From: an uncultured Desulfobulbus sp.
Lineage (GTDB): Bacteria > Desulfobacterota > Desulfobulbia > Desulfobulbales > Desulfobulbaceae
NCBI RefSeq assembly: GCF_963665445.1
Contig: NZ_OY762276.1
Location: forward strand, 1,272,001-1,336,000
DNA length: 64,000 nucleotides
Reading direction: 5' to 3'
The notes under the pieces were generated by a model that made no database searches, was not told the DNA's origin, and saw only the letters and a program-made list of their open reading frames with translations. The position numbers and the translations under genes are program-made. Positions 1-32,999 of the stretch are shown in pieces (within the stretch, counting starts at the first letter, position 1; every line of letters begins with the position of its first letter).

Positions 1-267
1 ATCGACTACAGCGACGGCACCTTTGACGGTCGTCTCCATTTCCGTACCGTGGGACCGATGCGCGATACCGACTGGGTCACGGCCGGATATCCGGAGATCG
101 AATATCCCACATTCACCGTGGTCGATCTGGTGGTGGGCTACAACTTTCTTCAGCACCACCGGGTCGCCCTGACCGTGGATAACCTCTTTGACAAGGACTA
201 CTACGAGAAAAAGGGCTATCCCAAGCCGGGCCAATCATTTTTCGTCAGTTATACCTATACATTCTAA
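1..267 (+). CDS. TonB-dependent outer-membrane receptor, C-terminal end (partial)
   Basis: The frame is open from the first base, so this is the 3' end of a longer gene. The last 88 residues carry typical features of a TonB-dependent receptor C-terminus: alternating hydrophobic/polar beta strands, the NLFDKDYYEK motif of the penultimate strand, and a final aromatic strand ending YTYTF with terminal Phe, as expected for outer-membrane barrel assembly. The family takes up siderophores, heme, cobalamin or metal chelates using TonB energy. The substrate cannot be read from this fragment. The next gene, a corrinoid adenosyltransferase, starts 22 bp later on the same strand, which suggests a corrinoid or other metallo-tetrapyrrole substrate (inference). 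Confidence 0.85.
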   Translation: MDYSDGTFDGRLHFRTVGPMRDTDWVTAGYPEIEYPTFTVVDLVVGYNFLQHHRVALTVDNLFDKDYYEKKGYPKPGQSFFVSYTYTF

Positions 268-289
268 ACCTGAGCGACAAGGAGCGACC

Positions 290-811
290 ATGGCAAAGGG
301 GTTGTTGATCGTCCTCACCGGTGACGGCAAGGGAAAGACCACCTCGGCCCTGGGGATGGCCCTAAGGGCCGCCGGGCATGGGCTGCGGGTCTGTTTCATC
401 CAGTTTATCAAGGGGAGCTGGCACTATGGCGAGATGGATGCGGCCAAACGGTTTGAGGATCTGATCGATTTTCACGTCATGGGCCGGGGCTTTACCTGGA
501 AATCGGAGGATATGGAAGAGGATGCCCGCCTGGCGCGGGAGGCCTGGTCGCATGCCTGCGGGGCCATTGAATCCGGGCGCTATCATCTGGTGGTGCTGGA
601 TGAGTTCACCTATCTGCTCCATTACCGGATGCTTGCCATCGAGCCCTGCCTCAGCTTTTTTGCCGCCCATTGTCCCAAACAGCATGTGATCATCACCGGC
701 CGTTACGCACCTCAGGCCCTGGTAGCGGCCGCTGATCTGGTCACGGAAATGCGGGTGGTCAAGCATCCCTACAAAAGCGGGATCATGGCCCAGAAGGGGA
801 TCGAATTCTGA
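290..811 (+). CDS. cobO: Cob(I)yrinic acid a,c-diamide / corrinoid adenosyltransferase (CobO/BtuR family)
   Basis: This cytoplasmic enzyme transfers the 5'-deoxyadenosyl group of ATP to cob(I)alamin or its precursors. The 173-residue product matches the family along its length: P-loop GDGKGKTT near residues 10-17, the QFIKGSW motif, GFTW, the LDEFTY segment and the VKHPYKSGIMAQKGIE tail. The start at 290 is preceded by AAGGAG with good spacing; an in-frame upstream start at 188 would run back into the TonB gene. Its stop overlaps the next ATG by one base (TGATG), so translation is probably coupled. The organism needs adenosylcobalamin for the mutase encoded at 40.5-44.8 kb, but the gene's place beside a CobN homologue suggests a dedicated role in this cluster. 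Confidence 0.93.
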   Translation: MAKGLLIVLTGDGKGKTTSALGMALRAAGHGLRVCFIQFIKGSWHYGEMDAAKRFEDLIDFHVMGRGFTWKSEDMEEDARLAREAWSHACGAIESGRYHLVVLDEFTYLLHYRMLAIEPCLSFFAAHCPKQHVIITGRYAPQALVAAADLVTEMRVVKHPYKSGIMAQKGIEF

Positions 812-1938
812 TGGAAACCACGCCCTCGACTGCAGATCAAGGTTGCCAGATCAACTATTTGATTCTCGCGCTTACCACTCGCTGCAATCTGCGCTGCCGC
901 TACTGCTACCACGGCAGTCTGGAAAATCGATTGGATATGGATCCGGCTACCCTGAGCCAGGTACTGGACCTGGCTGCAAGGGGCTCCGGGCCGCTGCATA
1001 TTCAGCTGAGCGGCGGCGAGCCCTGCCTGGTGCCTGAGCTGATAGAGAGGGCCTGCCGCGAGGCCCGTCAGATATCCCGCCCCATGAGCATGGGCATTCA
1101 GGTGAACGGCACCTGCCTCAACAGGCAGGTCATCGGCCTGATTCGGGAATACCGTCTGCAGGTGGGAGTGAGTCTCGACGGCACGCCCAAGGTGCAGGAG
1201 GCCCTTCGCGGTCGGGCCTCCGAGACCCTGCGCGGCCTGATGCTCCTGGAGCGGGAGGAGATTCCCTTTCGGGTCACCACGGTGATCAGCCAGGAAAACG
1301 TCGGCCAGTTGGACCGGCTGGCCCTGCTCCTGGGCGGGTTTCGTCAGGCTCGGGGGATCGGTCTTGATCTGCTGGTCTGCAAGGGAAATTGTGCAGAGCG
1401 CAACGATGCACCGGCCCCTGCGGAGGCAGATGCCCTGGTCCGTGGGCTTCAAGGGCTGACCAGGACACTGGATGAGATCAATTGCAGGAGAAGCATTCCC
1501 CTGCGATTGCGGGAATGGGATCTGGTGCGGCACATGCTGGCACGCCGTGAACCACAGCAGAATCGGGTCTTCTGTCAGGCCGCCCAGGGCGCGAGCCTGG
1601 CCGTTCATCCCGATGGCCGCTTGTTTCCCTGTGGGCAAAGCCTTGGCGATGAACGATTTGCCGCAAACCTTGCAGAGGTGGGCAATCGTCCCTGCTTGCC
1701 GCCGACTTCGCTCCGCTCACTGCACAAAGACTGTTCGGGCTGCCCGCTTGAGCACTGTTGTCCGGGCGACTGCCCCAGCCGCCTGTTCTATAATCCTCCG
1801 GCGGTTCGGAAGTTGGCCTGTACCCTCTACCAGACCCTGGCGGCGGCCTGCGGCAACGAGCAAACCGAGACCGCCGTTTCTTCCAATTTTTCCAATGACG
1901 GATTGATCCATGAACGGAGGCATCCATGTCGTCTTTAA
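811..1938 (+). CDS. Radical SAM/SPASM-domain protein
   Basis: The N-terminus has the radical SAM signature C25-x3-C29-x2-C32 (TTRCNLRCRYCY), followed by the SGGEP motif for SAM binding. The C-terminal third is a SPASM-type auxiliary cluster domain: HPDGRLFPCG, then CSGCPLEHCCPGDCPS around residues 309-325. SPASM enzymes usually modify peptides or proteins, or act in cofactor maturation. No precursor peptide gene is visible nearby, so the substrate is unknown. The gene is translationally coupled to cobO upstream and overlaps the nitrilase gene downstream by 13 bp, so it belongs to the metallo-tetrapyrrole-type operon. The domain assignment is firm; a role in macrocycle or protein modification is inference. 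Confidence 0.85.
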   Translation: METTPSTADQGCQINYLILALTTRCNLRCRYCYHGSLENRLDMDPATLSQVLDLAARGSGPLHIQLSGGEPCLVPELIERACREARQISRPMSMGIQVNGTCLNRQVIGLIREYRLQVGVSLDGTPKVQEALRGRASETLRGLMLLEREEIPFRVTTVISQENVGQLDRLALLLGGFRQARGIGLDLLVCKGNCAERNDAPAPAEADALVRGLQGLTRTLDEINCRRSIPLRLREWDLVRHMLARREPQQNRVFCQAAQGASLAVHPDGRLFPCGQSLGDERFAANLAEVGNRPCLPPTSLRSLHKDCSGCPLEHCCPGDCPSRLFYNPPAVRKLACTLYQTLAAACGNEQTETAVSSNFSNDGLIHERRHPCRL

Positions 1939-3482
1939 AGCTTGGATTGTTGCATCTGGCCATCCAGCACAAGAAACCTGAACACAACCGCCAACAGCTT
2001 TTTGACCTCTGCCGGGAAGCCGGAGAACGCGGTATGCAGCTGATCGCCGCCCCGGAACTGGCCATATCCGGATACTCCTTTGCGAGCATTCGCGACATGG
2101 AACCCTACGCAGAGACTCTCAAAGGGCCGACCTTGACCGGGATGGCCGTAATATGTCGAGAGTACTCCATGTACGCCTGTATCGGTATGGCCGAGCGGGA
2201 CCCGGACAGCGGTATTCTCTACAACAGCGCCTTTGTGATCGATCCGCAGGGTGCTGTCGTTTGCCGCTATCGGAAGATGAACGCCGAATTCCGCTGGGCC
2301 TGTCCCGGCAATCCCTGCGATGACAACACCTTTCTCACCCCCTGGGGACGGGTCGGGGTGCTGATCTGCTCGGATTGCTACCACAGCCTGATGCCGCGGG
2401 TGACTGCCCTGCGCGGGGCCAATCTGCTCTTGGTGCTGGCCAACTGGCCGCCGGTGGGTGAGCTCGATCCTGTGGAGATTTGGCGGGCGCGGGCTGTGGA
2501 AAACGGCCTCTATGTCGCGGTCTGCAACCGTACCGGTCTCGATGCCACCATGGATTGCCGCAAGGGTCCTTCGGCCCTGATCAGTAACCAGGGCGCCATT
2601 CATCTGCAGAAAGTAGTACGAAAATCCAAGTTGGTGCGGGCCAGTGTGCCGTTGAACAGTGATCAGAGTCTCAAGGGGGGGCACCGGCTCAAGCGATTGG
2701 CAAACCGGCACCATGAGCACATGCACGCCTGTTATCTCAATCGTGCCGGCATCAGCGATCTGACATCTTTACTGCAACTGCCACGAACCGGTCAGTTGCA
2801 ACTCTGCTGTCATTGTCCTGATCCGAAAATCGGCATGCGCCCGACCCTGTCGCAGATCGAGGCAAGCAGTGGTACCGCCGCCACCCTCCATATCCTGCCG
2901 ACCGGCCATTATGACGACACCGATATCGACGGCCTGCGCATCTGGTGCGCGGCCACCGGGCACAAGGTGGTGCTCAGCAGAAGCAGTGAAAGCGGGGAAA
3001 GTTTGTACTGGTTTGACGGCAAGGAGCAGCCCCGGTTCCGTTCATGGGACAGTGAGCATGGCGATGAGGACGAGGAGGGCGATTTTCCGGTGTTTGATTG
3101 CGGCGCCGCCCGGGTTCATCTCGTGCCCGGTTGCGGTCTCTATCATCCGGAGCTGTTTTTGGCCTGTGCCAAACAGGGGGCGGATCTGGTGATCCTCTTC
3201 AACCGGAGCTTCAACGACAAGCTGTGTCTGTTGGCCGGTGCCCGCACCATCGAACAGGTGGCGGTCGCCCTCTGTTCCCCCCAGGGGGCCGGAATCTGGA
3301 CAACGCCGGAGGGGCACCAGCGCTGGGGGGAAATGCTGGCCGGTCCGGGCGAGCATTGCACCGCGATCCTCGATACCTGCAGGACCCGCACCAAACGATT
3401 CCAGGAAAGGATCGATTACCGCACCCTGCTCCAGGATCCGCAGACGACGGCCAACAGCGAATCTACGCAGGCACATGCCTAA
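1926..3482 (+). CDS. Nitrilase-superfamily protein with a second, degenerate nitrilase-like domain
   Basis: Residues 1-260 form a carbon-nitrogen hydrolase domain with the E-K-C triad in place: Glu in APELAISGY, Lys in YRKMNAEF and Cys in LICSDCYH. Such enzymes hydrolyse or transfer amide groups. At 518 residues it is about twice the usual length. The second half contains a stretch (PGCGLYHPELF, then KQGADLVILFNR) that lines up with the nucleophile region of the first half (CSDCYH, then RGANLLLVLANW), but Gly replaces the catalytic Cys, so this copy is probably inactive. The start has GGAGG at the right distance and overlaps the radical SAM gene. Corrinoid side-chain amides would be a natural substrate in this cluster, but that is inference. 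Confidence 0.82.
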   Translation: MSSLKLGLLHLAIQHKKPEHNRQQLFDLCREAGERGMQLIAAPELAISGYSFASIRDMEPYAETLKGPTLTGMAVICREYSMYACIGMAERDPDSGILYNSAFVIDPQGAVVCRYRKMNAEFRWACPGNPCDDNTFLTPWGRVGVLICSDCYHSLMPRVTALRGANLLLVLANWPPVGELDPVEIWRARAVENGLYVAVCNRTGLDATMDCRKGPSALISNQGAIHLQKVVRKSKLVRASVPLNSDQSLKGGHRLKRLANRHHEHMHACYLNRAGISDLTSLLQLPRTGQLQLCCHCPDPKIGMRPTLSQIEASSGTAATLHILPTGHYDDTDIDGLRIWCAATGHKVVLSRSSESGESLYWFDGKEQPRFRSWDSEHGDEDEEGDFPVFDCGAARVHLVPGCGLYHPELFLACAKQGADLVILFNRSFNDKLCLLAGARTIEQVAVALCSPQGAGIWTTPEGHQRWGEMLAGPGEHCTAILDTCRTRTKRFQERIDYRTLLQDPQTTANSESTQAHA

Positions 3483-3495
3483 ACCGGAGGTTGCC

Positions 3496-6400
3496 ATGAA
3501 AATCGTTTTTCTCCACGGACAGATGTTCCAGTCCCAGACCTGGTCCAGGGCCCATGCAATCCTGCGTGAGGAGGGGATCGAACTCCTCTTTTTCGGCCAG
3601 CACAACAAGGCCCGGGAGGCAATCGATCTGCTGCGAGAAGGTGGGGTCGATCTCTGCATTGCCCAGTTGTTTCGCGACATGCCCGGCTATGATGAACTGG
3701 TGGACGCAGCCCAGGGAGTTCCCCATCGGATCGATCTTGGACCGCAGACAGAGACCGAGTTCACCACGCTTGCACCTGAGCAGGCGGCGGGTTTCGCCGC
3801 CTATCTCCGGCAGGTCTCGCTGGCGAACTTTGTCAATGGCATCCGCTTTTTCGCGGCTGCCATCGGCAGGGAACGGGTCTTTGATCCTCCCGAGGAAGTG
3901 CGCACCTGCGGTCTCTACCATCCCAGGCATACGGGGTTGTTTGCCGCCAGCATCGATTACCTCTCCTGGCAGTCTGAACGCCTCGCCCAGGTGGGGGAAC
4001 GTCCCCTGGTGGCACTGCTCTGCTATTACGGCCAGATCGTCGAGCAGAACCAGGCCGAGATCGATGCCTTGATCGACGCCCTGGAAAAACACGACCTGAT
4101 GCCCCTGTGCATAGTGACCGAGGGGATGGCCGACAGCAGCCTGCCCCTCGCGCAGCGCTATCCCTGGATCCGTCATATAGAGGATGCAAGACCGCAGATA
4201 CTCTTGAATCTGTTGGCTGGACGCATCCTCGCCCAGAGCGAGGATGTAAGGCTCCTCAAGGATCTGAACCTGCCGATCGTGCAACTGCTGCGCATCTATC
4301 AGCAAAGCCCGGAGCAGTGGCGCCAGGACACCTATGGGTTCGGTACGGGTGCCCAGTCCATGGTGTTCAGCCTCACACAGCCGGAGATGGCCGGGGTGAT
4401 CGAGCCCACGGCCATTGCCGCCACCGTCGGCGAGACCGACCCGCTCACCGGGCTCTTTCTCCGCCGCTATCTGCCCCTGCCGGAACAGATAGAGCTCCTC
4501 TGTGGCCGGCTTAAGCGCTGGATCAGGCTGCGGACGCTGGCCAACGGGAACAAGCGGTTGACCATCGTCCTCCACAACAACCCCTGCAAGGGGGTGGAGG
4601 CAACCCTTGGCCTGGCCGCTGGACTGGATACCTTCGCCAGCCTGGCCGCCCTGATCACCGCACTGCGGGAGGCGGGCTACGACACCGGCGGCGCTCCGGA
4701 GGTGGGCAGGGAACTGCTCGAACTGCTGCTTGCGCGCAAGGCCATCTCCGAGTTTCGCTGGACCACCACCGATGAGATCGTGGCCAAGGGCGGCGTGCTC
4801 CACTCTGCCGATGAGGAGGAGTACCAGCGGATACTGGCCGCCATGCCCGCGACCTCCAGGGAGCGGGTTGAGGCGGACTGGGGCCTCTTTCCCGGTGAGG
4901 GCATGGTGTATGAACAGGAAGGCCGGAAAACCCTGTTGGTGACCGGACTGCGGTTCGGCAACCTCCAGATCATCGTCCAGCCCAAGCGCGGCTGCTACGG
5001 GGCCAAGTGCAACGGCGAGGTCTGCCGGATCCTGCACGATCCCCATCTCTCGCCACCGCCCCACTGGCTCGCCACCTACGCCTATATCCGCGAGACCTCG
5101 GATGCGGTGATTCATTTCGGTGCCCATGGCGCCCTCGAGTTCCTCCCCGGCAAACAGGTTGGGCTCTCCACCGGTTGTTTTCCCGAGATCACCCTGGGCG
5201 ATCTGCCCAATATCTACCTCTACATCATGGATGTGCCCGGCGAGGGGCTGGTGGCCAAGCGGCGGGGCAGGGCGGTGATGGTGGATCACCTCACCCCGGT
5301 ATACCGGCCCGCTTCACCGGAGCGTCAGACCGTGGAGCTGGAGGACCTGCTCGACCAATACCAGAAGGCCGGGCAGCACGCGGAAACAAAGCGGCAGCAG
5401 ATCTTGCGGTCGCAGATGGCTCCCCTGATGCAGCGCATGGGGGCCTTGGATGAATCTTTTGACGGGCAGGATCTGGCAGTCTTTGACCAGGCCGTTGATT
5501 TGCTCTCTCGAAGAATATCGCGGAGCAAACGGATCCTTGCCGCCGACGGGCCGCACATGCTGGGGACCGCGCCCGACACCCACGGGATCGCCACCATGCT
5601 GGCCACCCTGCTTGGTAAACCCGCCGACGGCTTGCCGAGCCTGGCCGAGATCGCGAATTGTTCCGAGAGCGCATCGGGCACTGTCTTTGAGGATGCGGTT
5701 GCCGTGCTCGAACCGCTTGTGCAACCGGCTCCCACCCAGGAAAGCTCTTGCGAGGCCACGCGTCGTTTTCCCCGACTTCAGGGCTGGTGCCGAGAAATCG
5801 GTGGCCGCATCGAAAGCTGCACCCGGGAAATTTCCCAGCTCCTCAAGGCTCTTGACGGCGAGTTCATCGAGCCGGGACTCTGCGGCTCCTTATCCCTGGG
5901 TAAGACCGACACCCTGCCCACGGGAAGGAATTTTTTCACCAGCGATGTTGCGGCCATGCCCACCAGGGCCGCTTGGGAGGTGGGGCAGGTCTTGGCGGAT
6001 AACCTGTTGCGCAAATACTTTCGCGATGAGGGCCGATTTCCCGAGAGCGTGGGCATCAGCCTGTGGAGCATCGACGCCTTCAAATCCGACGGCGAGGTCT
6101 TCTGCCAGACCCTGGCCCTGATGGGGATGCGACCGGTATGGCAGGTGAATGGCCGGGTATCCGGGGTTGCACCCCTGGATCTGGACGAATTGGTGGTGGA
6201 GCTTGACGATGGCCGCAGCCTGCCCCGCCCCCGGGTGGATGTCCTCATTCAGACCAGCTCAATCCTGCGCGACATGGTCCCCCATTTTGCCGATCTGCTC
6301 GATGAGGCCGCGGTCATGGCCGGGGATCTGGAAGAACCGCTTGAACGTAATGCGATCCGCAAGCATACCCTGGAGCAGTTTGAGGCGCTCCGCCGGGAGT

Positions 6401-7281
6401 TGGGCGAGGGTCGCAGCGGCGATGAGCTGCGTCGCCTGGCCAGCTTTCGTGTCTTCTCCTCGGCTCCGGGCGCCAGCGGCACCGGCGTCGGCCTGGCCCT
6501 GGATGCCTCGGCCTGGAAAGACGAGGCGGATCTGGCGGAAACCTACATCAACCGGAGCGGGTTCGCCTACGGCTCGGAAAAAGTGGGCAACCGGGCCATG
6601 GGGGTGGAGGCGCAGCAGATGTTCGCCAACCGCCTCAAGCAGGTCAATGTCACCTATATGCGCCAGTATTCCCCGGAATACGATCCCATGGACTGCAGCT
6701 GCTACACCGGTTGCCTGGGCGGGATGTCGGTGGCGGCCAAGGCGGTTTCCGGCAGACGTGCGCGGATCTATTTCGCCGATACCAACACCGAGGACGATCA
6801 TTCGGTGCGCGATTTTGCCGAGGATCTGGAGGCCTCGATCATGGCCAAGCTACTCAATGACAACTGGATCAATCAGCGGCAGACCGAGGGCTACCAGGGG
6901 GCGGGCGATGTTGCCAGCCGGGTCAACACCCTCTTCAAGTGGAGCGCCACCACCGAAACCGTGGCTGGGTGGGTCTTTGACCGGGTGGTCACCACCTATC
7001 TCCAGGATGCCGAACGCCTGGAGTGGTTGCGCCGGGAAAACCCCTACGGTCTGGAGGAGATAACCCGCCGGTTGCTCGAGGCGCAGAGTCGCGGCATGTG
7101 GAAGGCGCCGGAAGACCTGCTCACCGTTGTCCAGGAGGCGGCGCTGTTGATCGAGGGCGATATGGAGGAAAATCTAGGCGAGGTCCGCGAAGAGTTCCAG
7201 GGCTCCAAGGTCGAAGTGCTGACCGCAAATGACGTGGACAAATGGCAACCTGCTTGGCGTTTGGAGCGTGTAGGGGGATAA
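3496..7281 (+). CDS. cobN: CobN-type cobaltochelatase / magnesium-chelatase H-like large subunit
   Basis: The 1261-residue product has the length of CobN and its hallmark block HFGAHGALEFLPGK near residues 540-553, with PKRGCYGAKCNGE just before it and, in the C-terminal third, YGSEKVGNRAMG and DCSCYTGCLGG. The family binds tetrapyrroles; CobN with CobS and CobT inserts Co(II) into hydrogenobyrinic acid diamide in the aerobic B12 pathway. Related HmuS proteins in anaerobe heme-uptake loci have been linked to iron removal from heme. No CobS/CobT or ChlI/ChlD ATPase gene is present in the window. The start at 3496 has CCGGAGG five bases upstream; the in-frame ATG at 3475 lies inside the nitrilase gene. 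A role in inserting or removing metal here is inference. Confidence 0.9.
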   Translation: MKIVFLHGQMFQSQTWSRAHAILREEGIELLFFGQHNKAREAIDLLREGGVDLCIAQLFRDMPGYDELVDAAQGVPHRIDLGPQTETEFTTLAPEQAAGFAAYLRQVSLANFVNGIRFFAAAIGRERVFDPPEEVRTCGLYHPRHTGLFAASIDYLSWQSERLAQVGERPLVALLCYYGQIVEQNQAEIDALIDALEKHDLMPLCIVTEGMADSSLPLAQRYPWIRHIEDARPQILLNLLAGRILAQSEDVRLLKDLNLPIVQLLRIYQQSPEQWRQDTYGFGTGAQSMVFSLTQPEMAGVIEPTAIAATVGETDPLTGLFLRRYLPLPEQIELLCGRLKRWIRLRTLANGNKRLTIVLHNNPCKGVEATLGLAAGLDTFASLAALITALREAGYDTGGAPEVGRELLELLLARKAISEFRWTTTDEIVAKGGVLHSADEEEYQRILAAMPATSRERVEADWGLFPGEGMVYEQEGRKTLLVTGLRFGNLQIIVQPKRGCYGAKCNGEVCRILHDPHLSPPPHWLATYAYIRETSDAVIHFGAHGALEFLPGKQVGLSTGCFPEITLGDLPNIYLYIMDVPGEGLVAKRRGRAVMVDHLTPVYRPASPERQTVELEDLLDQYQKAGQHAETKRQQILRSQMAPLMQRMGALDESFDGQDLAVFDQAVDLLSRRISRSKRILAADGPHMLGTAPDTHGIATMLATLLGKPADGLPSLAEIANCSESASGTVFEDAVAVLEPLVQPAPTQESSCEATRRFPRLQGWCREIGGRIESCTREISQLLKALDGEFIEPGLCGSLSLGKTDTLPTGRNFFTSDVAAMPTRAAWEVGQVLADNLLRKYFRDEGRFPESVGISLWSIDAFKSDGEVFCQTLALMGMRPVWQVNGRVSGVAPLDLDELVVELDDGRSLPRPRVDVLIQTSSILRDMVPHFADLLDEAAVMAGDLEEPLERNAIRKHTLEQFEALRRELGEGRSGDELRRLASFRVFSSAPGASGTGVGLALDASAWKDEADLAETYINRSGFAYGSEKVGNRAMGVEAQQMFANRLKQVNVTYMRQYSPEYDPMDCSCYTGCLGGMSVAAKAVSGRRARIYFADTNTEDDHSVRDFAEDLEASIMAKLLNDNWINQRQTEGYQGAGDVASRVNTLFKWSATTETVAGWVFDRVVTTYLQDAERLEWLRRENPYGLEEITRRLLEAQSRGMWKAPEDLLTVVQEAALLIEGDMEENLGEVREEFQGSKVEVLTANDVDKWQPAWRLERVGG

Positions 7282-7345
7282 ACCGGAATCAAGCCCTGCT
7301 GCGATCTGCGCAATTCTCAAATTTTGCACTACTAAGGAGTAATCC

Positions 7346-8128
7346 ATGCATCGTATGACGACCCTTCTTTTTCAAACCCTGTTTTTTCTCGTAACTCTAG
7401 GTCTGTCTGTTGCCCAGGCCCACTACCTCTGGCTCAATGCCGATGATTACCGGCCCAAGGAAAAGGGTATACCTCTGTTTTCCGTGGGCTGGGGGCACAA
7501 CTTTTACAGCCCGGTGGGCGATATCCTTACCGACCCGGAAATGCTTGCTCAGATCGATCTGATCGACCCCGCCGGCAAAAAGATGACCATGGATCGAATA
7601 AACGGGTTCCAGTATCAGGCTCACCACCAGTACGGCCCGGGTGTCTATCTGGCCTCGACCGCGATCAAGGAGCGATTTTCCACCAAGACCAAGGAGGGGT
7701 ACAAACATCAATCCAAAATAGGGCTGAGCGATGTGCTTTCGTCCCGCTATCTGGGAATGTATGCCAAAGCGATCATCAACGTCGGTGAGGCCAGTGAGGC
7801 CGCGAACCTCTCCACCCCCCTCGGAACGCCTCTGGAACTGGTTCCTCTGACCAACCCAGCCAGTCTGCAGCCCGGCGATTTTTTTCGCTTCAGCCTGCTT
7901 TACCAGGGCAAACCTCTGGCAGAGGAGGTCAATGCCACCTATGCAGGGTTTTCCCCGCATAATGCCTGGCCTTATACCTGCCGAACCGACAAGGACGGTG
8001 TGGGGGCGATCCGCATTCTTCAGCCGGGAATCTGGGTGATCAAGGTGAATTACAGGGCACCCTATCCCAACCTGGAGGAGGCCGACGAATACTCCTACAC
8101 AGCATCCTTGACTTTTGAAGTCCGCTGA
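7346..8128 (+). CDS. Exported DUF4198-like protein
   Basis: A 260-residue product starts with a clear signal peptide (hydrophobic FFLVTLGLSVAQA, cleavage probably before HYLWL). The HYLWLNADDY start of the mature protein and the later GDFFRFSLLYQGKPLAEEVNATY and DKDGVGAIRILQPGIWVIKV segments are typical of DUF4198 periplasmic proteins, a family often found beside nickel or other metal uptake genes. The function is unknown. A strong AAGGAG precedes the start. It follows cobN after 64 bp and precedes a second exported protein, so it probably supplies a periplasmic binding or handling step for whatever the TonB receptor imports (inference). Confidence 0.75.
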   Translation: MHRMTTLLFQTLFFLVTLGLSVAQAHYLWLNADDYRPKEKGIPLFSVGWGHNFYSPVGDILTDPEMLAQIDLIDPAGKKMTMDRINGFQYQAHHQYGPGVYLASTAIKERFSTKTKEGYKHQSKIGLSDVLSSRYLGMYAKAIINVGEASEAANLSTPLGTPLELVPLTNPASLQPGDFFRFSLLYQGKPLAEEVNATYAGFSPHNAWPYTCRTDKDGVGAIRILQPGIWVIKVNYRAPYPNLEEADEYSYTASLTFEVR

Positions 8129-8153
8129 ACAGGGCGTGGGGAGGCCGAAATCC

Positions 8154-9167
8154 ATGCGAAGGTTGTGTATTATCCTGGGGTTGATACCGTTTTTGCTCGG
8201 CGTGGCACCGGATTTGGTGTCAGCCGGGCAATCCCTGCCGGTCTGCTCCTGGCATCTGGCCGAGGAGGGCCTCTATGTCTACCGATTTGACATGGATCGC
8301 CTCAATTGGCGACAGATCAGAGATGAACGACAGCAACGGCAAAGGGTTCAGGAAAGTCCTAAACACCTGAGCCTTGTCCGGGCCGATCTGGCCGCTCCCT
8401 TCATCCCCTTCGCAAATCGGGATCAGACCATTTTCGAAAACGGTGAGGTCCTCACCCGGGCCCCGGACGGAGGAAGTGCCAAAGTGACATTTTCCAAAGA
8501 TCTTGGTGAAATCGTCATTCCCGAGGACCTTGGGCTCAACGGACGCTATCTGGTCGGCGGACATTTTGTCGCAGGCGGCAATGCGGGGAAACCTCGACTG
8601 CACCTTTATCCCAAGATAATGGTCGGCCATTACAGGCATGACGGCCGTCCCGGATCGACACCGGCCTTTTTTTTCAATGATCCCGCCATAGCGCTTGAAA
8701 TTGGTCCGGCCCGCTCGCCGCAGATGAACCGCATGGGGGGGGGATTTCAGCGGCCGCATGATGAGTATGTCATGGAAGTGCGCTATTTGGGCCGTCCCCT
8801 GGCCGGGGCGACGGTCGACGCGATCGGCGAGGGGAGCGGCTGGCGTAGAGAGTACCGCACCGATGCCTCAGGCAGGTTCACCGTCATCCCCTTTGACGAT
8901 CGCTCTAGGCCGCGCCATTACGATAAAATGCTTTATGTGGTCAAGGTCGAGGAACCGCAGCGGAATGCGCTTCATATCGCGACCCTGCCGATGATCATTT
9001 TTCGCAACCGGCCGGAATGGACCAGCCATATCTGGGGGTATGCGACTTGGGCCGGATTTGGCCTGGCAGGCGCCTGCCTGCTTGCTGGCGGAGCCATGCT
9101 GCGTAACCGCAGGCAGCAACGGCAGACCCTGGTTCGTTTTGATCAGTGCCGAATCAAGGAGGAGTAG
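8154..9167 (+). CDS. Exported, C-terminally anchored DUF4198-like protein
   Basis: The 337-residue product has an N-terminal signal peptide (LCIILGLIPFLLGVAPDLVSA), a long periplasmic region, and a C-terminal membrane segment (near residues 300-325) followed by the basic tail RNRRQQR, so it is anchored with the tail in the cytoplasm. The segment EVRYLGRPLAGATVDA followed by TDASGRFTVIPFDD resembles the second half of DUF4198 and carboxypeptidase-regulatory-like folds, matching the preceding gene. The start at 8154 gives a proper signal peptide; an earlier in-frame start overlaps the upstream gene. The function is unknown. A role as a periplasmic partner of the DUF4198 protein is inferred from the tandem arrangement. 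Confidence 0.68.
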   Translation: MRRLCIILGLIPFLLGVAPDLVSAGQSLPVCSWHLAEEGLYVYRFDMDRLNWRQIRDERQQRQRVQESPKHLSLVRADLAAPFIPFANRDQTIFENGEVLTRAPDGGSAKVTFSKDLGEIVIPEDLGLNGRYLVGGHFVAGGNAGKPRLHLYPKIMVGHYRHDGRPGSTPAFFFNDPAIALEIGPARSPQMNRMGGGFQRPHDEYVMEVRYLGRPLAGATVDAIGEGSGWRREYRTDASGRFTVIPFDDRSRPRHYDKMLYVVKVEEPQRNALHIATLPMIIFRNRPEWTSHIWGYATWAGFGLAGACLLAGGAMLRNRRQQRQTLVRFDQCRIKEE

Positions 9168-9169
9168 CC

Positions 9170-10141
9170 GTGCGTATTGCTACCATTCGTTGGCTGGTGT
9201 TGATCATTTCCTTTGCGCTTCTTCTCTTTGGTGCCTGTACCGGGTTGCATCTGGGCAGTTTTCTCCCCACCTTTTCCTGTTGTTTTGTTCCTGCCAGGGC
9301 CGGAACCTGTTTTTTCCTTCCCCTGCAGCAGAGTCTGGGGTCGTTTACCTGGGAGGATATGCGACTTTTTTTCTTTGAGCGGTTTTTCTGGTTCAGCCTG
9401 CTGGTGCTCATACTCGGCCGGGCCTGGTGCGGTTGGATATGTCCGCTTGGATTTTTTCAGGATGCCCTTGACTGGCTGCGGCGGAAAATCGGCATGGGCT
9501 ACGGGCGCTTTGGTCATGCATTGCGCAGACGTCTTGCCTGGCTGAAATGGATTTTTTTTGGTGTGGCAGTGCTCATTCCCCTGTGGGTGGCTTTTCCCGT
9601 CTTCTTTCCTCCCGTGGCGCTTGACCTCAACATCCCCTTTTGCCAGCTCTGCCCGGGGAAATACATTTTGCCGTTGATCACCTTTTCCCAGGACCGGATT
9701 CTGGTGGATTTCGAATCCACGACCCGTTTGGTGATGTCCTCCCTGGGGCTGCTGTTTTCGATCACGGTCATTGTCGGCGCTTTTGTAAAACGCCGTTTCT
9801 GGTGCCCCTACTGTCCGTTGGGGTTGTTGATGTCCTGGTACCGTAAATGGAGCCTGTTCAAACTGAAAAAAGACGACGCCACCTGCACCCATTGTCAGAT
9901 TTGCGCCAATGTCTGCCCCATGGAGATCGAGGAGGTTTTCCGCTCCCGTGGCCGGATCGATGTCACCTTTGCAGACTGCATTCTCTGTCTGAAGTGTATC
10001 GAGCACTGTCCGGAAAACGATGCCCTGCGCGCCGACTTTCTCGGGCGGACCATCTACCGATCCTCAGCGCAAGGATTTTTCAATCATCCCGCTCTCCCCA
10101 CCCGAGCATCCCTGTCATCCGCGAACAAAACGCATGAATAA
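9170..10141 (+). CDS. NapH/CcoG-like membrane ferredoxin with 4Fe-4S clusters
   Basis: A 323-residue membrane protein with about four to five hydrophobic segments. It has two membrane-proximal motifs of the NapH/NosR type (CGWICPLGFF and CPYCPLGLL) and a C-terminal two-cluster ferredoxin domain (CTHCQICANVCP and CILCLKCIEHCP). Such proteins carry electrons from the quinone pool or a cytoplasmic donor across or along the membrane. The start is GTG at 9170, preceded by AAGGAGGAG; an ATG frame start at 9146 lies within the upstream gene. The stop overlaps the next start. In this cluster it could feed electrons to, or take them from, the HgdB/HgdC-like pair that follows (inference). Confidence 0.85.
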   Translation: MRIATIRWLVLIISFALLLFGACTGLHLGSFLPTFSCCFVPARAGTCFFLPLQQSLGSFTWEDMRLFFFERFFWFSLLVLILGRAWCGWICPLGFFQDALDWLRRKIGMGYGRFGHALRRRLAWLKWIFFGVAVLIPLWVAFPVFFPPVALDLNIPFCQLCPGKYILPLITFSQDRILVDFESTTRLVMSSLGLLFSITVIVGAFVKRRFWCPYCPLGLLMSWYRKWSLFKLKKDDATCTHCQICANVCPMEIEEVFRSRGRIDVTFADCILCLKCIEHCPENDALRADFLGRTIYRSSAQGFFNHPALPTRASLSSANKTHE

Positions 10142-11429
10142 AGTGATCCAACCCCAAGTCAACAACCGTCAGCTGCGGCAAATCGGTCGGGAAGCCGCCC
10201 GGCAGCTGCAGCTTCTTCGCGAACTGCCGGGAGCACCGGCCTACCTTGCGCCCTTTATCGACGCCCTGGAAAGGGTCTTTGTCGCCAACGATCCAGGCCC
10301 CTTGCTCCAGGGTGACGATGGGCCGAGGCCGGTTATCGGCATCTACTGCATCCTGGTGCCGGAGGAGTTGATCTATGCGGCCGGTGCCATCCCCCTGCGA
10401 CTCTGCGGCGGCTGTTCCTCCTCCTGCGCGGCGGGCGAGGAGCATGTGCCCCGCGATGGTTGTCCCTTGGCCAAATCCTCGCTTGGCCTGACCGCGCAAC
10501 CGGGACTTGCCGTCTACGATCTCTGCGATGTGGTGATCGTACCCACCACTTGCGATGCCAAGCGTAAGTTTGCCGAGGAGTTGTCCCGCTTTCGCGAGGT
10601 GTGGATGCTGGAGGTGCCCCATCTCAAGGATTCGGAAATCTCCCAGCACGCCTGGCTGCAACAGGTCGAGGCACTGAAGGCACGGCTTGAAGCGTATATG
10701 CGCGAAAAAAGCGGCAAGGTCTGCACAATCACCGCGCCTGGGCTCGAATGGGCGATTGCCAGACAGGCACAGGCGCAAGTGCAGATGCGGCGGCTGCAGC
10801 TGTTGCGGAGCCGGGACGTCACCTCTATCTGGGGACGGCAGGCCCTGCTGGTTGCCGGTGCCTACTCCTTTATGGAGGTCGGTGCTTGGACCGCAGCGCT
10901 TACCCGGTTGAACGATGAGCTGGAGGAGGGGCATGCGATACACAAAGAGACGTCCCCGCGCATGCTCATTGCCGGCAGTCCGGTGATTTTCCCCAACTTC
11001 AAGCTGCCCAACCTGATCGAAGAGTTGGGGGCGGTTGTGGTGGCGGATGAATCCTGTGTCGGCGACCGAACACTCTACGACCCGGTGGGTCATCCGGAAC
11101 GCAACCTGCACGCGCAGCTCATCAGTCTGGCTGCCCGTTACCTCATGCCCTGTATCTGTCCGAGTTTCGCCCCCAACGAGGACCGATTGGTCACCCTGCG
11201 CCGAATGATCGCCACCCACCGGGTCGACGGAGTGGTCTACCATGTGCTCAAGGGGTGTGTGGTCTATGACTTTGAGGTCGGTCGGGTGGAACGGGCGCTG
11301 AAGGAGTGCAATGTCCCTGTGGTCCGCATCGAAACCGACTACAGCCCGGAGGATGTGGAACAGTTGCGTACCCGCATTGAGGCGTTTGTCGAGATGCTTA
11401 TGCAACGCAAGAAGAAAACAAAGGAGTGA
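10134..11429 (+). CDS. 2-hydroxyacyl-CoA dehydratase D-family protein (HgdB-like, probable double-cubane-type Fe-S protein)
   Basis: The 431-residue product belongs to the HgdB/FldC/BcrB family. Conserved cysteines are seen in LCGGCSSSC (about residues 89-97), DGC (about 110), PTTC (about 139), DESC (about 305) and PCICPS (about 339). Members either dehydrate 2-hydroxyacyl-CoA as a two-subunit enzyme or, as single-subunit double-cubane proteins, reduce small molecules at very low potential. Only one such subunit gene is present, followed seven bases later by the activator gene, which is the arrangement of the stand-alone reductase type. The start at 10134 overlaps the preceding stop by eight bases. 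There are no CoA-transferase or acyl-CoA genes nearby, which argues against amino-acid fermentation. Confidence 0.85.
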   Translation: MNKVIQPQVNNRQLRQIGREAARQLQLLRELPGAPAYLAPFIDALERVFVANDPGPLLQGDDGPRPVIGIYCILVPEELIYAAGAIPLRLCGGCSSSCAAGEEHVPRDGCPLAKSSLGLTAQPGLAVYDLCDVVIVPTTCDAKRKFAEELSRFREVWMLEVPHLKDSEISQHAWLQQVEALKARLEAYMREKSGKVCTITAPGLEWAIARQAQAQVQMRRLQLLRSRDVTSIWGRQALLVAGAYSFMEVGAWTAALTRLNDELEEGHAIHKETSPRMLIAGSPVIFPNFKLPNLIEELGAVVVADESCVGDRTLYDPVGHPERNLHAQLISLAARYLMPCICPSFAPNEDRLVTLRRMIATHRVDGVVYHVLKGCVVYDFEVGRVERALKECNVPVVRIETDYSPEDVEQLRTRIEAFVEMLMQRKKKTKE

Positions 11430-11435
11430 CACACT

Positions 11436-12221
11436 ATGGAATACTTTGCGGGTATTGACGCCGGTTCAACCTACGTCAAGGTGGCGGTCCTGACCGGGGA
11501 GGGCGAGTTGGCCGGATACCAGCACCGGCCCACCGGTATCGATGCGGCCGGCAATTCGCGCATCATGCTGGATTCGATCATGGAGGGGCTGGGTACATCT
11601 ACCTCAACTCTTCGGGCAATCATGGCCACCGGCTACAGCCGCAGGATCATCGACGTGGCCCACGACACCATCACCGAGATCCGCGCCCATGCCGCCGGGG
11701 CACTGCTGACCGCACCACTGCAGGCCAGCATCCGTACCGTCATCGATATCGGCGGCCAGGACAGCAAGGTGATCGTTCTCGGCGAGGACGGCGACACCCA
11801 GAATTTCGTGATGAACGACAAGTGCGCTGCCGGAACCGGGCGTTTTCTCGAATCCCTGGCCCGGGTTTTGGAACTGACGGTCGCCGATCTCGGCCCCCTG
11901 TCCCTGCAATCCACCGCCCCGGCCACCATCAACTCCACCTGCGTCGTCTTTGCCGAGTCCGAGGTTATCTCCCTGGTCGCGCGGAAAACACCGGCCAGGG
12001 ATATCGTCGCCGGTATTCATGAGGCCCTGGCCAAGCGCATCGGCGGCATGGCGCGCAAGGCCCGCTTTGAGCCGGGAGTGCTCCTTACCGGAGGCGGCGG
12101 CCTCAACCCCGGTATTGTTCAGGCCCTGGAGGATGAACTGATGGTGGATATTCACCTGCCACTCTATCCGCAGCTCAACGGTGCCATCGGTGCGGCCAGA
12201 TTGGCCGGAGAACAGGGGTAA
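11436..12221 (+). CDS. ASKHA-family activator ATPase of 2-hydroxyacyl-CoA dehydratase (HgdC-like)
   Basis: The 261-residue product is a complete activase: phosphate-1 loop GIDAGSTYVKV near residues 6-16, DIGGQDSKV near 104-112, NDKCAAGTGRFLE with the first bridging cysteine near 131, and a second cysteine in NSTCVVFAESEV near 168. In known homologues a single 4Fe-4S cluster bridges the dimer through these two cysteines, and ATP hydrolysis drives one electron at very low potential into the partner HgdB-type protein. AAAGGAG precedes the start. Immediate pairing with the HgdB-like gene makes the functional link strong. The final electron acceptor is unknown; a corrinoid, heme or other tetrapyrrole is suggested by the context (inference). 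Confidence 0.92.
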   Translation: MEYFAGIDAGSTYVKVAVLTGEGELAGYQHRPTGIDAAGNSRIMLDSIMEGLGTSTSTLRAIMATGYSRRIIDVAHDTITEIRAHAAGALLTAPLQASIRTVIDIGGQDSKVIVLGEDGDTQNFVMNDKCAAGTGRFLESLARVLELTVADLGPLSLQSTAPATINSTCVVFAESEVISLVARKTPARDIVAGIHEALAKRIGGMARKARFEPGVLLTGGGGLNPGIVQALEDELMVDIHLPLYPQLNGAIGAARLAGEQG

Positions 12222-12225
12222 GTCA

Positions 12226-12867
12226 ATGCCCACTCTTTCGCTCATTGGTACCGGGCTGCTGCTGGGCTTGGCCACGGGGCCGTCCTGTCTGGCTTCCTGC
12301 GCTCCGGTGGTGGTACCGGTGCTGTTGTGCACGACCGCGCCTTCAGTGCATAGGCGGTTTGCCTGGCCCATGCTCAGCAGCCTTCTCTTCGGTCGTCTGC
12401 TTGCCTATATTCTGGTCGGCGCCTTGGCGGGAGTCAGCGGGCGTTCCCTTCAGGTGATCAACGCTGATCTCGTGCCATGGCTGAGTCTGGTGCTGGCCCT
12501 CATTCTGCTCGCACACGGTCTTGGTCTGCTGCGAAATTTTATGTGCTGTACTGTCGGACGGTTGGGAGGTTTCGCTTCGCCTTTTATTCTGGGAGTACTC
12601 ACCGGCCTTTCGCTGTGTCCGCCGTTTGTTGTCGCTGTCTCCTGGGTCTGGGGCCAAGAGATGGGGCCATTGCCGGGTATGCTATTTTTCTTCGCCTTTT
12701 TTGGCGGCACCTCGATGTATCTCCTGCCCCTTGGGTTTGGCGGCTATCTTGCCCAAGGCCCATCCTTTGTTCGGCTGGGGCGATTGCTTTCCGTTTGCAG
12801 TGGGCTCTTTTTTCTGCTGCAATTTTTCTTGACGGTGCGGGGAAAAATATGGATCAGTCCGGGCTAA
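12226..12867 (+). CDS. Small polytopic membrane protein, CcdA/UreH/TauE-like
   Basis: The 213-residue product is nearly all hydrophobic, with about six membrane segments. Cysteines lie in the first segment (GPSCLASCAPVVVP) and again in GLSLCPPFVVAVSW, a symmetric arrangement resembling DsbD/CcdA-type electron or thiol carriers and the UreH_2/TauE group of putative metal or sulfite transporters. The start chosen gives a normal N-terminal membrane segment; the in-frame ATG at 12181 lies inside the activator gene. It begins four bases after that gene and is co-transcribed. It could move reductant across the membrane or transport a metal released by the cluster; both are inference. Confidence 0.7.
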   Translation: MPTLSLIGTGLLLGLATGPSCLASCAPVVVPVLLCTTAPSVHRRFAWPMLSSLLFGRLLAYILVGALAGVSGRSLQVINADLVPWLSLVLALILLAHGLGLLRNFMCCTVGRLGGFASPFILGVLTGLSLCPPFVVAVSWVWGQEMGPLPGMLFFFAFFGGTSMYLLPLGFGGYLAQGPSFVRLGRLLSVCSGLFFLLQFFLTVRGKIWISPG

Positions 12868-13050
12868 GGGGGTGTTCGCAAATAACTTGGGCAAAATTGC
12901 GCTCATATTTGGGTCAGATTTGGTTGTGGCGATCAGCGCAAAACCGCAGGCGTAGCAGGGCTACGTCGAGGATTGTGTGTTTGAGCCGCTGCCAAAGATG
13001 GCCCGAAGATGAGATGCAAGATGTTCAAGTTATTTGCTGACAGCCCCTAA
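12865..13050. repeat. MITE-like element with terminal inverted repeats, inside the operon
   Basis: The 186-bp gap between two cluster genes is bounded by imperfect 25-bp inverted ends: 12865-12889 and 13026-13050 match at 21 of 25 positions, including the perfect core GCAAATAACTTG. Inside lies a perfect short palindrome CGTAGC-AGG-GCTACG (about 12952-12966). No ORF is convincing. The element starts at the stop of one gene and ends two bases before the next start, so the mRNA probably carries it as a large folded spacer. A non-autonomous mobile element or a REP-like structure is likely. Confidence 0.6.
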
Positions 13051-13052
13051 GC

Positions 13053-14081
13053 ATGAAAATGTTGATCATCCCTTTTGAGCAGGCCCGCATGATTGCCCCG
13101 CTTGTCAAGGTGGCCCTTCTCGTCGCTCACCAGGCCGTCCAGTTCCTGCCCTTTACCTTTGTCGCCCTGGTGGTCACCGAGTTGATGCTTCGCTACGGGG
13201 TCTTTGCCAAATTGGAGCCCCTGGGAAAACCGTTGACCCGCATGTCCCGGCTGCCCTCGGTGAGCACCCTGACCCTGATCACCGGCATGGGATCGGTCCT
13301 TGCGGCGAATTCGATGCTGGTCACCTACCGTAGCAAGAACATCATCAACGATCGGGAACTGGTGCTCTCCTCCCTGCTCAACTCGATCCCGGTCTATCTC
13401 AAGGAACTGCTTACCTACCATTTTCCGGTGATCTTGCCCCTGTTGGGTCCCTGGGTGGGCGGTATCTACCTGGTGACCTTCTGGCTGGCAGGGGTGATCA
13501 AGCTGGCGGTGGTCATTGTCGCCGGTCGGCTGCTCCTTGGCTCTGGTCGTGAGGAAGGGGCGGGCGAGAAAACGCGATCCTCCGACGGCAGCGGAAAGCA
13601 GGAAGAGGCACGTTTTATTCCCACGCTGGTGGACGCTGTCAAAAAACAGAGCCGCCTCTTTCTCCGCATCACCGCCTACAGCCTGGGCATGATGTTTGTG
13701 GTCCTCTTAGGCCTGGAACTGGGAGTGTTCGACTGGACCGATGCCGTGATCGGGCCGATGGCCCGCCAGGTCGGTCTGCCCGCTGTGGTCCTGGGGCCGC
13801 TGGGAGTCTATGCGGTGAGCCCGCTGGCCGGCGTTTCGTCCCTGGCCGCTCTCCTCAGCCAGCACCTGATCACCGGGCAGCAGGCGATTGTCGCCCTGAT
13901 GATCGGTGGCCTGGTGATGGCGCCCATCATGTATTTGCGCACCATGTTGCCCAACTATGTCGGGCTTTTTGGGGCGAAGATAGGGGGATGGATTGTCCTG
14001 CTTTCCCTTTGCTGTGCCCTGGGCGCACGTAGCCTGGTCCTTGGCCTGGTCCTCTGGGGAGGGCATTTTTGCACCCGGTAA
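13053..14081 (+). CDS. Nucleoside-recognition (GATE) domain membrane protein
   Basis: The 342-residue protein has about eight membrane segments in two halves separated by a hydrophilic stretch near residues 165-195. The pattern ITGMGSVLAANSMLVTYRSKNIINDRELVLSSLLNS is typical of nucleoside-recognition/GATE domains, also found in FeoB and SpoIIM-type transporters. The ligand is unknown for most members. The gene ends the 1-14 kb cluster and has a weak Shine-Dalgarno because the repeat element lies directly upstream. A role as permease for a product or metal of this cluster is inference; it could also be unrelated and merely downstream. Confidence 0.75.
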   Translation: MKMLIIPFEQARMIAPLVKVALLVAHQAVQFLPFTFVALVVTELMLRYGVFAKLEPLGKPLTRMSRLPSVSTLTLITGMGSVLAANSMLVTYRSKNIINDRELVLSSLLNSIPVYLKELLTYHFPVILPLLGPWVGGIYLVTFWLAGVIKLAVVIVAGRLLLGSGREEGAGEKTRSSDGSGKQEEARFIPTLVDAVKKQSRLFLRITAYSLGMMFVVLLGLELGVFDWTDAVIGPMARQVGLPAVVLGPLGVYAVSPLAGVSSLAALLSQHLITGQQAIVALMIGGLVMAPIMYLRTMLPNYVGLFGAKIGGWIVLLSLCCALGARSLVLGLVLWGGHFCTR

Positions 14082-14263: not shown

Positions 14264-14478
14264 TCGTTCTCGTAAAAAGCCTCGAGAACGACGTTTCGAG
14301 CTTTGTAAGTTGCTGATTTTACGATGCGTGACATTCGGGCTTTTGACTTTTTACGAAGCCATCAATATTGTCGTTCTCGTAAAAAACCTCGAGAACGACG
14401 TTTCGAGTTTTGTAAGTTGCTGATTTCACGATGCGTGACATTCAGGCTTTTGACCTTTTACGAAGCCATCAATATTCA
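14264..14478 (-). repeat. Two tandem copies of a dispersed 107-bp repeat
   Basis: Two units start at 14264 and 14371, so the period is 107 bp. Each unit read on the minus strand has the order: GCTTCGTAAAA, AAGCCTGAATGTCACGCATCG (one copy differs by one base), AACTTAC, CTCGAAACGTCGTTCTCG and a closing hairpin in which CGTTCTCG pairs with CGAGAACG around a short loop. The copy at 14371-14478 overlaps the 3' end of the PRPP-synthetase-like gene. Matching units occur at 49518-49694 and 58414-58628, and decayed ones elsewhere. The remaining part of the 14082-14263 gap shows no gene. Confidence 0.85.
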
Positions 14479-30021: not shown

Positions 30022-30615
30022 TCAACGACAAGGTTGGATTACATATTTCGACCCATGGGGGACCAGTTCTCGGATTCGTTGCAGGTCAGTCTCGGTGAGC
30101 CGGGATTGGTCAAAGGTGGTACGGAAGTGGTGGCCAATGCCGCTGCTGGCGAGCAGTTGCAGAGAACGTTGCAGGGCGCACCTGTCCACCTCGGTCCCGG
30201 CAAGTTCCGAATAACGCTCAAACGGAGCCTTGATGTCCATGGCCACGTAGTCCAGCAGGTTGTTGGTGAGCAACAGGTCCAGTAGATCGGGGTTGCTGCC
30301 GTTGGTGTCCAGCTTGACCGCATAGCCCAGTCTTTTGAGTGCGGAGCAGAAATCCGGCAATGCCGGCTGCAGGGTGGGCTCGCCGCCGCTGAGGACCACG
30401 CCTGCCAACTGCCCGACCCGTTCCCGCAGGCGGGCAAGGATTTCCCGCGGCGGATGGCTTCCGGCCCGATTGCGGGGTATGAGCTGGCCGTTGTGGCAAA
30501 AGGGGCAGCGAAAGTTGCAGCCCTGAAAAAAGACCACGGCCGCAACCTTACCGGGATAATCGATAAAGCTGTTGGGGTGGTAGCCGCCGATACGTAGCTC
30601 AGAAACTGTGGTCAT
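30022..30615 (-). CDS. nrdG: Anaerobic ribonucleoside-triphosphate reductase activating protein (NrdG2 type)
   Basis: This radical SAM enzyme installs the glycyl radical on NrdD. It has the signature GCNFRCPFCHN near residues 32-42, the VVFFQGC lead, SGGEPTLQ and YVAMDIKAP. IGGYHPNSFIDYPGK is typical of the NrdG2 subgroup. At 197 residues it is somewhat shorter than usual (about 230): it ends KYVIQPCR where relatives continue, so the C-terminus may have been lost. Its start overlaps the nrdD stop by 17 bp, so the two are translationally coupled and share the riboswitch-controlled promoter. Confidence 0.9.
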   Translation of the reverse strand: MTTVSELRIGGYHPNSFIDYPGKVAAVVFFQGCNFRCPFCHNGQLIPRNRAGSHPPREILARLRERVGQLAGVVLSGGEPTLQPALPDFCSALKRLGYAVKLDTNGSNPDLLDLLLTNNLLDYVAMDIKAPFERYSELAGTEVDRCALQRSLQLLASSGIGHHFRTTFDQSRLTETDLQRIRELVPHGSKYVIQPCR

Positions 30616-32722: not shown

Positions 32723-32785
32723 GGCTCTCTCCTTGACGCGAGGCAAGAGTGAATTGAAGGGCAGCCTAATCGTGGGGGCTGCGGT

Positions 32786-32965: not shown

Positions 32966-32970
32966 ATCGC

Positions 32971-32999
32971 TATATATAGTGGTTTAACTTTCGAGTCAA
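32971..32999 (-). promoter_or_regulatory. Sigma-70-type promoter of nrdDG
   Basis: On the minus strand, TTGACT (32994-32999) and TATATA (32971-32976) are 17 bp apart. Transcription would begin around 32964, right at the 5' edge of the cobalamin aptamer, which fits a riboswitch leader. Confidence 0.75.

Follow-up and report, generated by a model that had tools for sequence, protein, structure and literature searches.

In this study, a stretch of 64,000 nucleotides (the window; positions 1272001-1336000 of contig NZ_OY762276.1) from an uncultured Desulfobulbus sp. was analyzed, with emphasis on a gene cluster in its first 14 kb that contains a double-cubane-type reductase (DCCP). The genome consists of one contig of 5.08 Mb. 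The nearest named relative seen was Desulfobulbus rhabdoformis (DSM 8777; locus L044), with 77% identity in the DCCP-like protein. The open reading frame list and profile searches showed that all genes of the first 14 kb lie on the + strand and either overlap or are separated by short gaps. The genes, the common direction and the overlaps described by a first-pass annotation of the same DNA were confirmed. The cluster is a fusion of two modules, here called A and B.

Module B comprises five genes on the + strand. The first encodes a membrane-anchored two-domain beta protein of DUF4198 type (8154..9167), recognized with AlphaFold2 and Foldseek. It is followed by a NapH-like polyferredoxin membrane protein (9170..10141; Fer4_5, 56 bits), a DCCP of the NapH-linked subfamily (10134..11429; HGD-D, 299 bits), an ATP-dependent activase of the HgdC/DCCP-reductase type (11436..12221; BcrAD_BadFG, 182 bits), and a DsbD_2-type membrane protein (12226..12867; PF13386, 60.5 bits), whose gene comes after the activase in many module-B loci.

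Module A lies ahead of module B on the same strand. It consists of a BtuR/CobO corrinoid adenosyltransferase (290..811; PF02572, 221 bits; TIGR00708, 213 bits, above cut-off), a radical SAM/SPASM protein of no named family (811..1938; PF04055, 55.5 bits), a nitrilase-type carbon-nitrogen hydrolase of 518 amino acids (1926..3482; PF00795 (CN_hydrolase), 121 bits), and a CobN-type class I chelatase large subunit of 1261 amino acids (3496..7281; PF02514 (CobN-Mg_chel), 1000 bits). The top NCBIfam model for the radical SAM/SPASM protein was PapB, with 98 bits against a cut-off of 340. A first exported DUF4198 protein (7346..8128, +; PF10670, 131.5 bits) follows CobN, and a Gate-domain membrane protein (13059..14081, +; PF07670, 31.2 bits) ends the series. 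A relative of the latter (33% identity) is located between CobN and ChlI in genome G199 (L157 4076-5050), so the Gate-domain protein may belong with CobN and not with the reductase.

The window contains only the C-terminal end of the TonB-dependent receptor (1..267, +), a protein of 642 amino acids whose gene begins 1662 bases earlier; the receptor had been listed as a gene of the window. The piece in the window scored 21.9 bits with TonB_dep_Rec, under the cut-off of 27, and the full-length orthologue in L024 matches both barrel and plug. The true start of the cluster is about 1.7 kb ahead of the window and is preceded by a cobalamin riboswitch (RF00174; 102.5 bits against a gathering score of 31.5, Rfam). 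The riboswitch lies at about -2176 to -1973 of the window (L009:17824-18029), and the receptor gene starts 310 bases after it, at L009:18339. There was no terminator-like site in the 64 bases after CobN. A terminator-like hairpin lies past the last gene (14388..14407, +), and a similar one is at 12795-12822; such hairpins are no commoner than in shuffled sequence and are weak evidence.

The spread of module B was investigated with a profile from nine DCCPs, which matched 67 loci of the named genome collection. The DCCP was joined to a NapH-like gene in 43 of the 67 loci. Addition of L053, whose NapH side is cut off, gave 44 clustered loci, three of which are copies of loci already in the set. 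The NapH-like gene was present in 43 of these 44 loci, the activase in 42, the DUF4198-type gene in 34, DsbD_2 in 30, the TonB receptor in 24, ExbB in 20, and ExbD in 19. By record title, the hosts were deltaproteobacterial groups, Nitrospirae, Spirochaetia, Bacteroidetes, alphaproteobacteria, anammox bacteria, and others. In a phylum scan with the DCCP profile, scores above 500 bits were reached in 5 of 297 genomes, and other matching genes gave at most about 360 bits. On these figures, genome co-occurrence statistics were powerless and were dropped.

The position of module B relative to cobalamin riboswitches was investigated in 62 loci: the window (with L009), L024, L037-L043, 41 of the 44 clustered loci, L117, and 11 of L173-L184. 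Copies were removed from the counts (L066, L103 and L104 equal L038, L037 and L042; L177 and L114 equal L109); L051-L053 are near-copies. A cobalamin riboswitch stood ahead of 11 of the 62 loci. Seven were detected with Rfam (window, L024, L045, L050, L101, L102, and L109) and four (L175, L176, L181, and L183) with R1, our own riboswitch model built from the Rfam matches; L044, L079, L117, and L173-L184 were scanned by R1 only. In L098, R1 gave only a weak match (22.1 bits; none there by Rfam), which was left out of the count, and no riboswitch was found in the seven loci L037-L043. As a control, ordinary DCCP loci were searched by sequence pattern and by R1. No cobalamin riboswitch was found in these 18 loci (298 kb), six of which (L081, L083, L086, L088, L093, and L100) have less than 1.5 kb upstream and several of which come from clostridia or archaea, groups outside the R1 training. 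The pattern recovered 10 of 11 riboswitches in its test loci.

The riboswitch label was mapped on a tree of 67 DCCPs, in which the NapH-linked DCCPs fall outside the clade of ordinary rows. The tree omits L173 (DCCP cut), L176 (DCCP split) and L108_7409, and keeps only 6 of 20 ordinary rows. The label required five changes, and the starred branches of this quick-method tree forced every one of them. Five changes were still required without the doubtful rows L048 and L049, and three when L101 and L175 were also taken out. The association between riboswitch and module B is therefore recurrent, on separated branches. The 11 riboswitch-bearing genomes contain at least 94 cobalamin riboswitches in about 44.4 Mb; at this density, the probability that one lies by chance within 500 bases upstream is about 0.05% per locus. 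Genes for corrinoid handling also occur at riboswitch-bearing loci. L181 has a BtuF-CbiZ fusion after the activase, and L183 a relative of the fusion with 34% identity. The neighbors in L045 are a divergent CbiK and a BtuF-like gene; those in L050 are a CbiK piece, BtuCD-like genes, a tetrapyrrole methylase, and HmuS; and an HmuS-type gene is present in L109. Beyond the riboswitch-bearing set, CbiM in L048 and, by likeness, in L049 also agrees with a B12 link. The DCCP pair might instead act on an unrelated small molecule and merely share the operon: acetylene, hydrazine and azide are substrates of the known DCCP, and a 2025 paper calls the physiological relevance of its reactions unclear (PMC11971306). 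The repeated position behind cobalamin riboswitches and the frequent company of the NapH-like and DUF4198-type genes make such a substrate very unlikely.

The DCCP was compared with known families. The closest solved structures were 7yyl and 6eno (E about 1e-58), followed by BzdN (5.6e-18) and a HadC-type protein (1.1e-13). The 52 DCCP rows outside the ordinary clade have seven cysteine columns in common with the 20 ordinary rows (Cys91 in 90% of NapH-linked rows), some of which may bind the cluster. At window column 125, NapH-linked DCCPs are without the Cys of ordinary rows, and Cys340 was gained in 50 of the 52 rows. With NF040772 (cut-off 350), the window DCCP gave 323.5 bits and module-B relatives gave 365.1 bits (L039, which passes) and 192.5 bits (L109). 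By these profile scores, the window DCCP is best classed as a related subfamily of double-cubane proteins and not as an equivalog. The activase scored 226.6 bits with TIGR00241, above the cut-off of 125.4, and its cysteine motifs are there. The first-pass annotation had called the two proteins an HgdB/HgdC pair. The ATP-driven low-potential electron pair was upheld, but the HgdB-like protein is nearest to double-cubane proteins. Identity as an acyl-CoA dehydratase was rejected: by scores and closest structures the pair does not group with such dehydratases, the cluster has a single HGD-D subunit, and the HadC model gave 87.8 bits against a cut-off of 700.

The NapH-like protein remained under the NapH/MauN subfamily cut-off (TIGR02163, 78.9 bits against 213) and can be called NapH-like only. 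Sixteen cysteines were invariant across 12 aligned sequences, and its model (mean pLDDT 75.8) had no PDB match at E 0.001. Two exported DUF4198-like proteins had been proposed. The first was recognized by Pfam, while the second (8154-9167) gave 16.8 bits, under the Pfam DUF4198 cut-off of 34. Its AlphaFold2 model (pLDDT 85.6) begins with a helix, continues with beta domains, and ends in a membrane helix. The top Foldseek match was Zcp with cobalt bound (E 2.5e-9; TM 0.41, modest, by query length), and the first eight matches were Zcp with cobalt, zinc, copper or no metal. A nickel-bound DUF4198 protein was the 13th match, after unrelated beta proteins. At modest TM-scores of this order (about 0.4), the predicted fold matches that of DUF4198-type metal-binding proteins. 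A HHxCxWGH motif occurs in the DUF4198-type proteins of L061, L062, L065, L066, L070, L075, L103, L104, and L105, and some other module-B forms have NH or QH variants. The window form is without the motif, which hints at a different metal or ligand.

Taken together, module B is best read as a low-potential reductase, driven by ATP, that serves to acquire corrinoid or cobalt, and the cluster as an acquisition operon under B12-riboswitch control with putative co-transcription; a probability of about 0.55 is assigned to this reading. The gene families support a cluster for import and processing of a tetrapyrrole-type compound with an ATP-driven low-potential electron pair, as first proposed. Corrinoid, heme or nickel had been left as possible substrates. 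The cobalamin riboswitch, BtuR and CbiZ make corrinoid or cobalt likelier and lower heme and nickel. The gene content, the riboswitches, the recurrent place of module B behind them and the conserved cysteines are observed; substrate, electron path and chemistry are inferred as follows. The TonB receptor would carry a corrinoid or cobalt complex to the periplasm, where the membrane-anchored DUF4198-type protein probably binds the metal of the imported complex. The NapH-like protein, DCCP and activase would form one reductase. The activase would use ATP to drive very low-potential electrons into DCCP, and the NapH-like protein may be a membrane relay, as electron donor or exit. The most likely target would be the cobalt of an imported corrinoid, which might for instance be taken from Co(III) or Co(II) down to Co(I). 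Adenosylation by BtuR requires the corrinoid cobalt as Co(I), and BtuR is therefore favored as the natural acceptor step after cobalt reduction. CobN with ChlD/ChlI, CbiZ, the radical SAM protein and the nitrilase may work on the ring or side chains.

Several observations weigh against this reading. The window DCCP did not reach the curated double-cubane score (NF040772, 323.5 bits against a cut-off of 350). No cobalamin riboswitch was seen at 51 of the 62 loci, 13 of which have too little upstream sequence (L044, L046, L048, L049, L052, L053, L058, L064, L069, L071, L073, L079, and L180). The riboswitch of this cluster is about 11 kb ahead of the reductase genes. No activase was seen adjoining the DCCP in L101 and L175, and the DCCP of L176 is in two frames. 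The receptor orthologue in L024 passed neither the heme-receptor model (239 bits; cut-off 317) nor the B12-receptor model (158 bits; cut-off 600). In L051, a Mo/W-cofactor riboswitch (1336-1455) precedes a series of co-directional genes that includes a TonB receptor and, about 6.6 kb from the riboswitch, NapH-DCCP-activase; module B is thus not B12-specific, and its substrates may vary.

The Mo/W riboswitch would also fit another reading, in which a metal chelate enters through the TonB receptor and is reduced by module B in the periplasm; the released ion would bind to the DUF4198 protein and pass into the cell through DsbD_2. The metal would be cobalt behind B12 riboswitches and a different one elsewhere. 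The DUF4198-type fold, with metal-bound structures as top matches, points the same way, as do the CbiM cobalt transporters adjoining module B in L048 and, by likeness, L049, and the module-B loci that carry ExbB-ExbD-TonB of their own in genomes that gave no chelatase match. However, the CbiZ, BtuR, BtuFCD and CobN/HmuS neighbors of riboswitch-bearing loci indicate corrinoids, and the chelate reading is considered rather unlikely. Import of heme is highly improbable. The receptor orthologue is nearest to heme-receptor models, and Bacteroides HmuS is a heme de-chelatase (PMC12583661); against heme stand the cobalamin riboswitch, BtuR and CbiZ, as well as the genome's own HmuS-type operon (L011 4798-15402), which has a cobalamin riboswitch ahead and a BtuF-CbiZ fusion inside. 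The riboswitch and the fusion suggest a corrinoid rather than a heme role for this HmuS-type protein.

The B12 gene content of the genome was then considered. A separate operon with its own cobalamin riboswitch (L009:213-394) lies just upstream of the cluster. It contains CcsA-type, ResB-like, BtuF-, BtuC- and BtuD-like genes, a second CobN, a TonB receptor, a ChlD/ChlI-type AAA+ pair (L009 11383-14456), an ABC pair, and CbiZ; sequence likeness only was used to assign BtuFCD and the ABC pair. The upstream CobN gene (L009 5743-9521) is broken into reading frames of 1172 and, overlapping, 86 amino acids. A second ChlD/ChlI-type pair at L010 6202-9275 is apparently near-identical, judged by equal lengths and starts of the unaligned genes. 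The window CobN had been described as lone, which did not hold, because the genome has four CobN/HmuS-type genes, and the AAA+ pair at hand removes the argument that CobN has no partner. There was no CobT match in the genome. CbiD is present within a cbi-type cluster, which also has a CbiK-like gene (L159:16526-17455, likeness only). With CbiD and the CbiK-like gene present and no CobT match, this host probably has no need of canonical late cobalt insertion, possible AAA+ partners for CobN notwithstanding. Further cobalamin riboswitches lie elsewhere in the window. A tandem pair (39817-39996 and 40155-40342, +) immediately precedes a methylmalonyl-CoA mutase gene pair (40541-44799), and the same arrangement precedes a related gene in L026 and L028. 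The gene of an anaerobic class III ribonucleotide reductase (30599-32722, -) has another such riboswitch ahead of it (32774-32978, -).

Module A is partly conserved in the genus. The nitrilase was present in 11 of 75 genomes of relatives (own counted), all in the genus. CobN, radical SAM and nitrilase were adjacent in all seven closest CobN loci (window, L024, L044, L026, L027, L034, and L035). This linkage is weakened by seven loci (L028-L033 and L036) in whose fetched stretches the nitrilase is without CobN; L028 has the radical SAM gene, and L029-L033 and L036 are without it. Module A stands behind TonB receptors and, in some genomes, CbiZ, and a CbiK gene adjoins the nitrilase in some relatives (L026; L029 and L030 by likeness). 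In another family (L149, genome G085), the place between ChlD/ChlI and two CobN genes is taken by a radical SAM protein of 33% identity. Module A was without reductase genes in the fetched stretches of G010, G012, G013, and G021, and G013 and G021 were also without BtuR. Among the 75 genomes, a window-type DCCP (at least 75% identity) was found only in G000 and G001, and the fused arrangement was seen in three genomes only: the window, G001 (without BtuR), and D. rhabdoformis. The whole cluster as a single conserved pathway was therefore rejected.

The CobN tree (LG+G4, quick method) gave three clades with 99-100% SH-aLRT, the HmuS-type and window-type clades each at 100%: HmuS-type (eight rows, one sequence twice; B. 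theta HmuS itself absent), canonical CobN (seven, including annotated Sinorhizobium, Deinococcus and Halorussus proteins), and window-type (18). The phylogeny proposed in the first-pass annotation thus placed the window CobN in its own clade, sister to canonical CobN and outside the HmuS-type clade. Cys364, Cys500, Cys505 and Cys510 were present in 18 of 18 window-type proteins and in 0 of 14 other CobN/HmuS proteins compared. The stretch with Cys500, Cys505 and Cys510 is five residues longer than in solved CobN and ChlH. From the sequence, the four cysteines (4585..5025, +) form a putative Fe-S or metal site, for which BchH with an iron-sulfur cluster is a precedent in work cited in the reference list of PMC7689651.

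The CobN data bear on a reading in which CobN strips or swaps the metal of an imported tetrapyrrole and the DCCP pair is its dedicated low-potential reductant. The NapH-DCCP-activase trio adjoins CobN in the three fused genomes and HmuS-type chelatases in L050 and L109, and is about 19 kb away from one in L101. The window CobN retains the GxHG histidine and PGEG glutamate aligned to HmuS residues 538 and 577. Bacteroides HmuS requires a reductant of unknown natural source (PMC12583661). However, nearby ChlD/ChlI partners fit insertion, the window CobN is not in the HmuS-type clade, and the histidine is a glutamate in the two most distant members of the window subclade, L118 and L149. A CobN/HmuS-family match was found in 10 and missing in 39 of 49 searched genomes with module B, many of them drafts and the L044 genome not included; module B thus seems to work without a chelatase in most hosts. 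CobN and the HgdBC-like pair as one dedicated pathway, as first proposed, could not be maintained, and this reading is improbable. A variant in which an Fe-S-bearing CobN, fed by the ATP-driven DCCP through the NapH-like relay, strips or exchanges the cobalt of imported corrinoid for recycling is likewise doubtful. To our knowledge, no enzyme takes cobalt out of corrin.

These loci give one DCCP subfamily a setting: TonB-linked uptake, repeated placement behind cobalamin riboswitches, a NapH-like partner, and a periplasmic protein of metal-binding type. A role in B12 or cobalt uptake is now directly testable for this subfamily. Class I (de)chelatases might also draw strong reductant from module B, which would fill a gap pointed out for HmuS (PMC12583661), and a CobN clade with four invariant cysteines was brought to light. 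No paper describing a pathway that joins these parts was found among open-licence papers, in agreement with the first-pass annotation.

The system was compared with known systems. DCCP/DCCP-R (6eno, 7yyl) includes the best solved relatives and has in common with the window the seven cysteine columns and a single HGD-D subunit with an ATP-driven activase; by analogy, the window DCCP may carry an [8Fe-9S] cluster with ATP-dependent reduction. The window subfamily differs in the absence of Cys125, the presence of Cys340, its place outside the ordinary clade, and its occurrence in Ton and B12 loci. In the aerobic cobaltochelatase CobNST, CobN belongs to the sister clade and has the GxHG and PGEG motifs in common with the window CobN, for which AAA+ partner subunits are available as a ChlD/ChlI-type pair; ChlI/ChlD are described as stand-ins for CobS/CobT by Rodionov et al., as cited in PMC9227772. 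In contrast to CobNST, the window genome has CbiD and a cbi-type cluster in place of a CobT match, and its CobN has four extra invariant cysteines. The Hmu system has the class I chelatase family in common with the window, and the trio of module B adjoins HmuS-type genes in two loci; unlike HmuS, the window CobN lies outside the HmuS-type clade, and a signal peptide was not apparent by eye. The order TonB, BtuFCD, CobN, ChlI/ChlD is found in L151-L155 and upstream in the own genome, but the operons compared are without NapH-DCCP-activase, and a scan of L150-L155 with R1 gave no cobalamin riboswitch. As in a cobalamin riboswitch regulon, RF00174 is directly ahead of a putative transcription unit, of which all 12 genes would be co-transcribed and B12-repressed.

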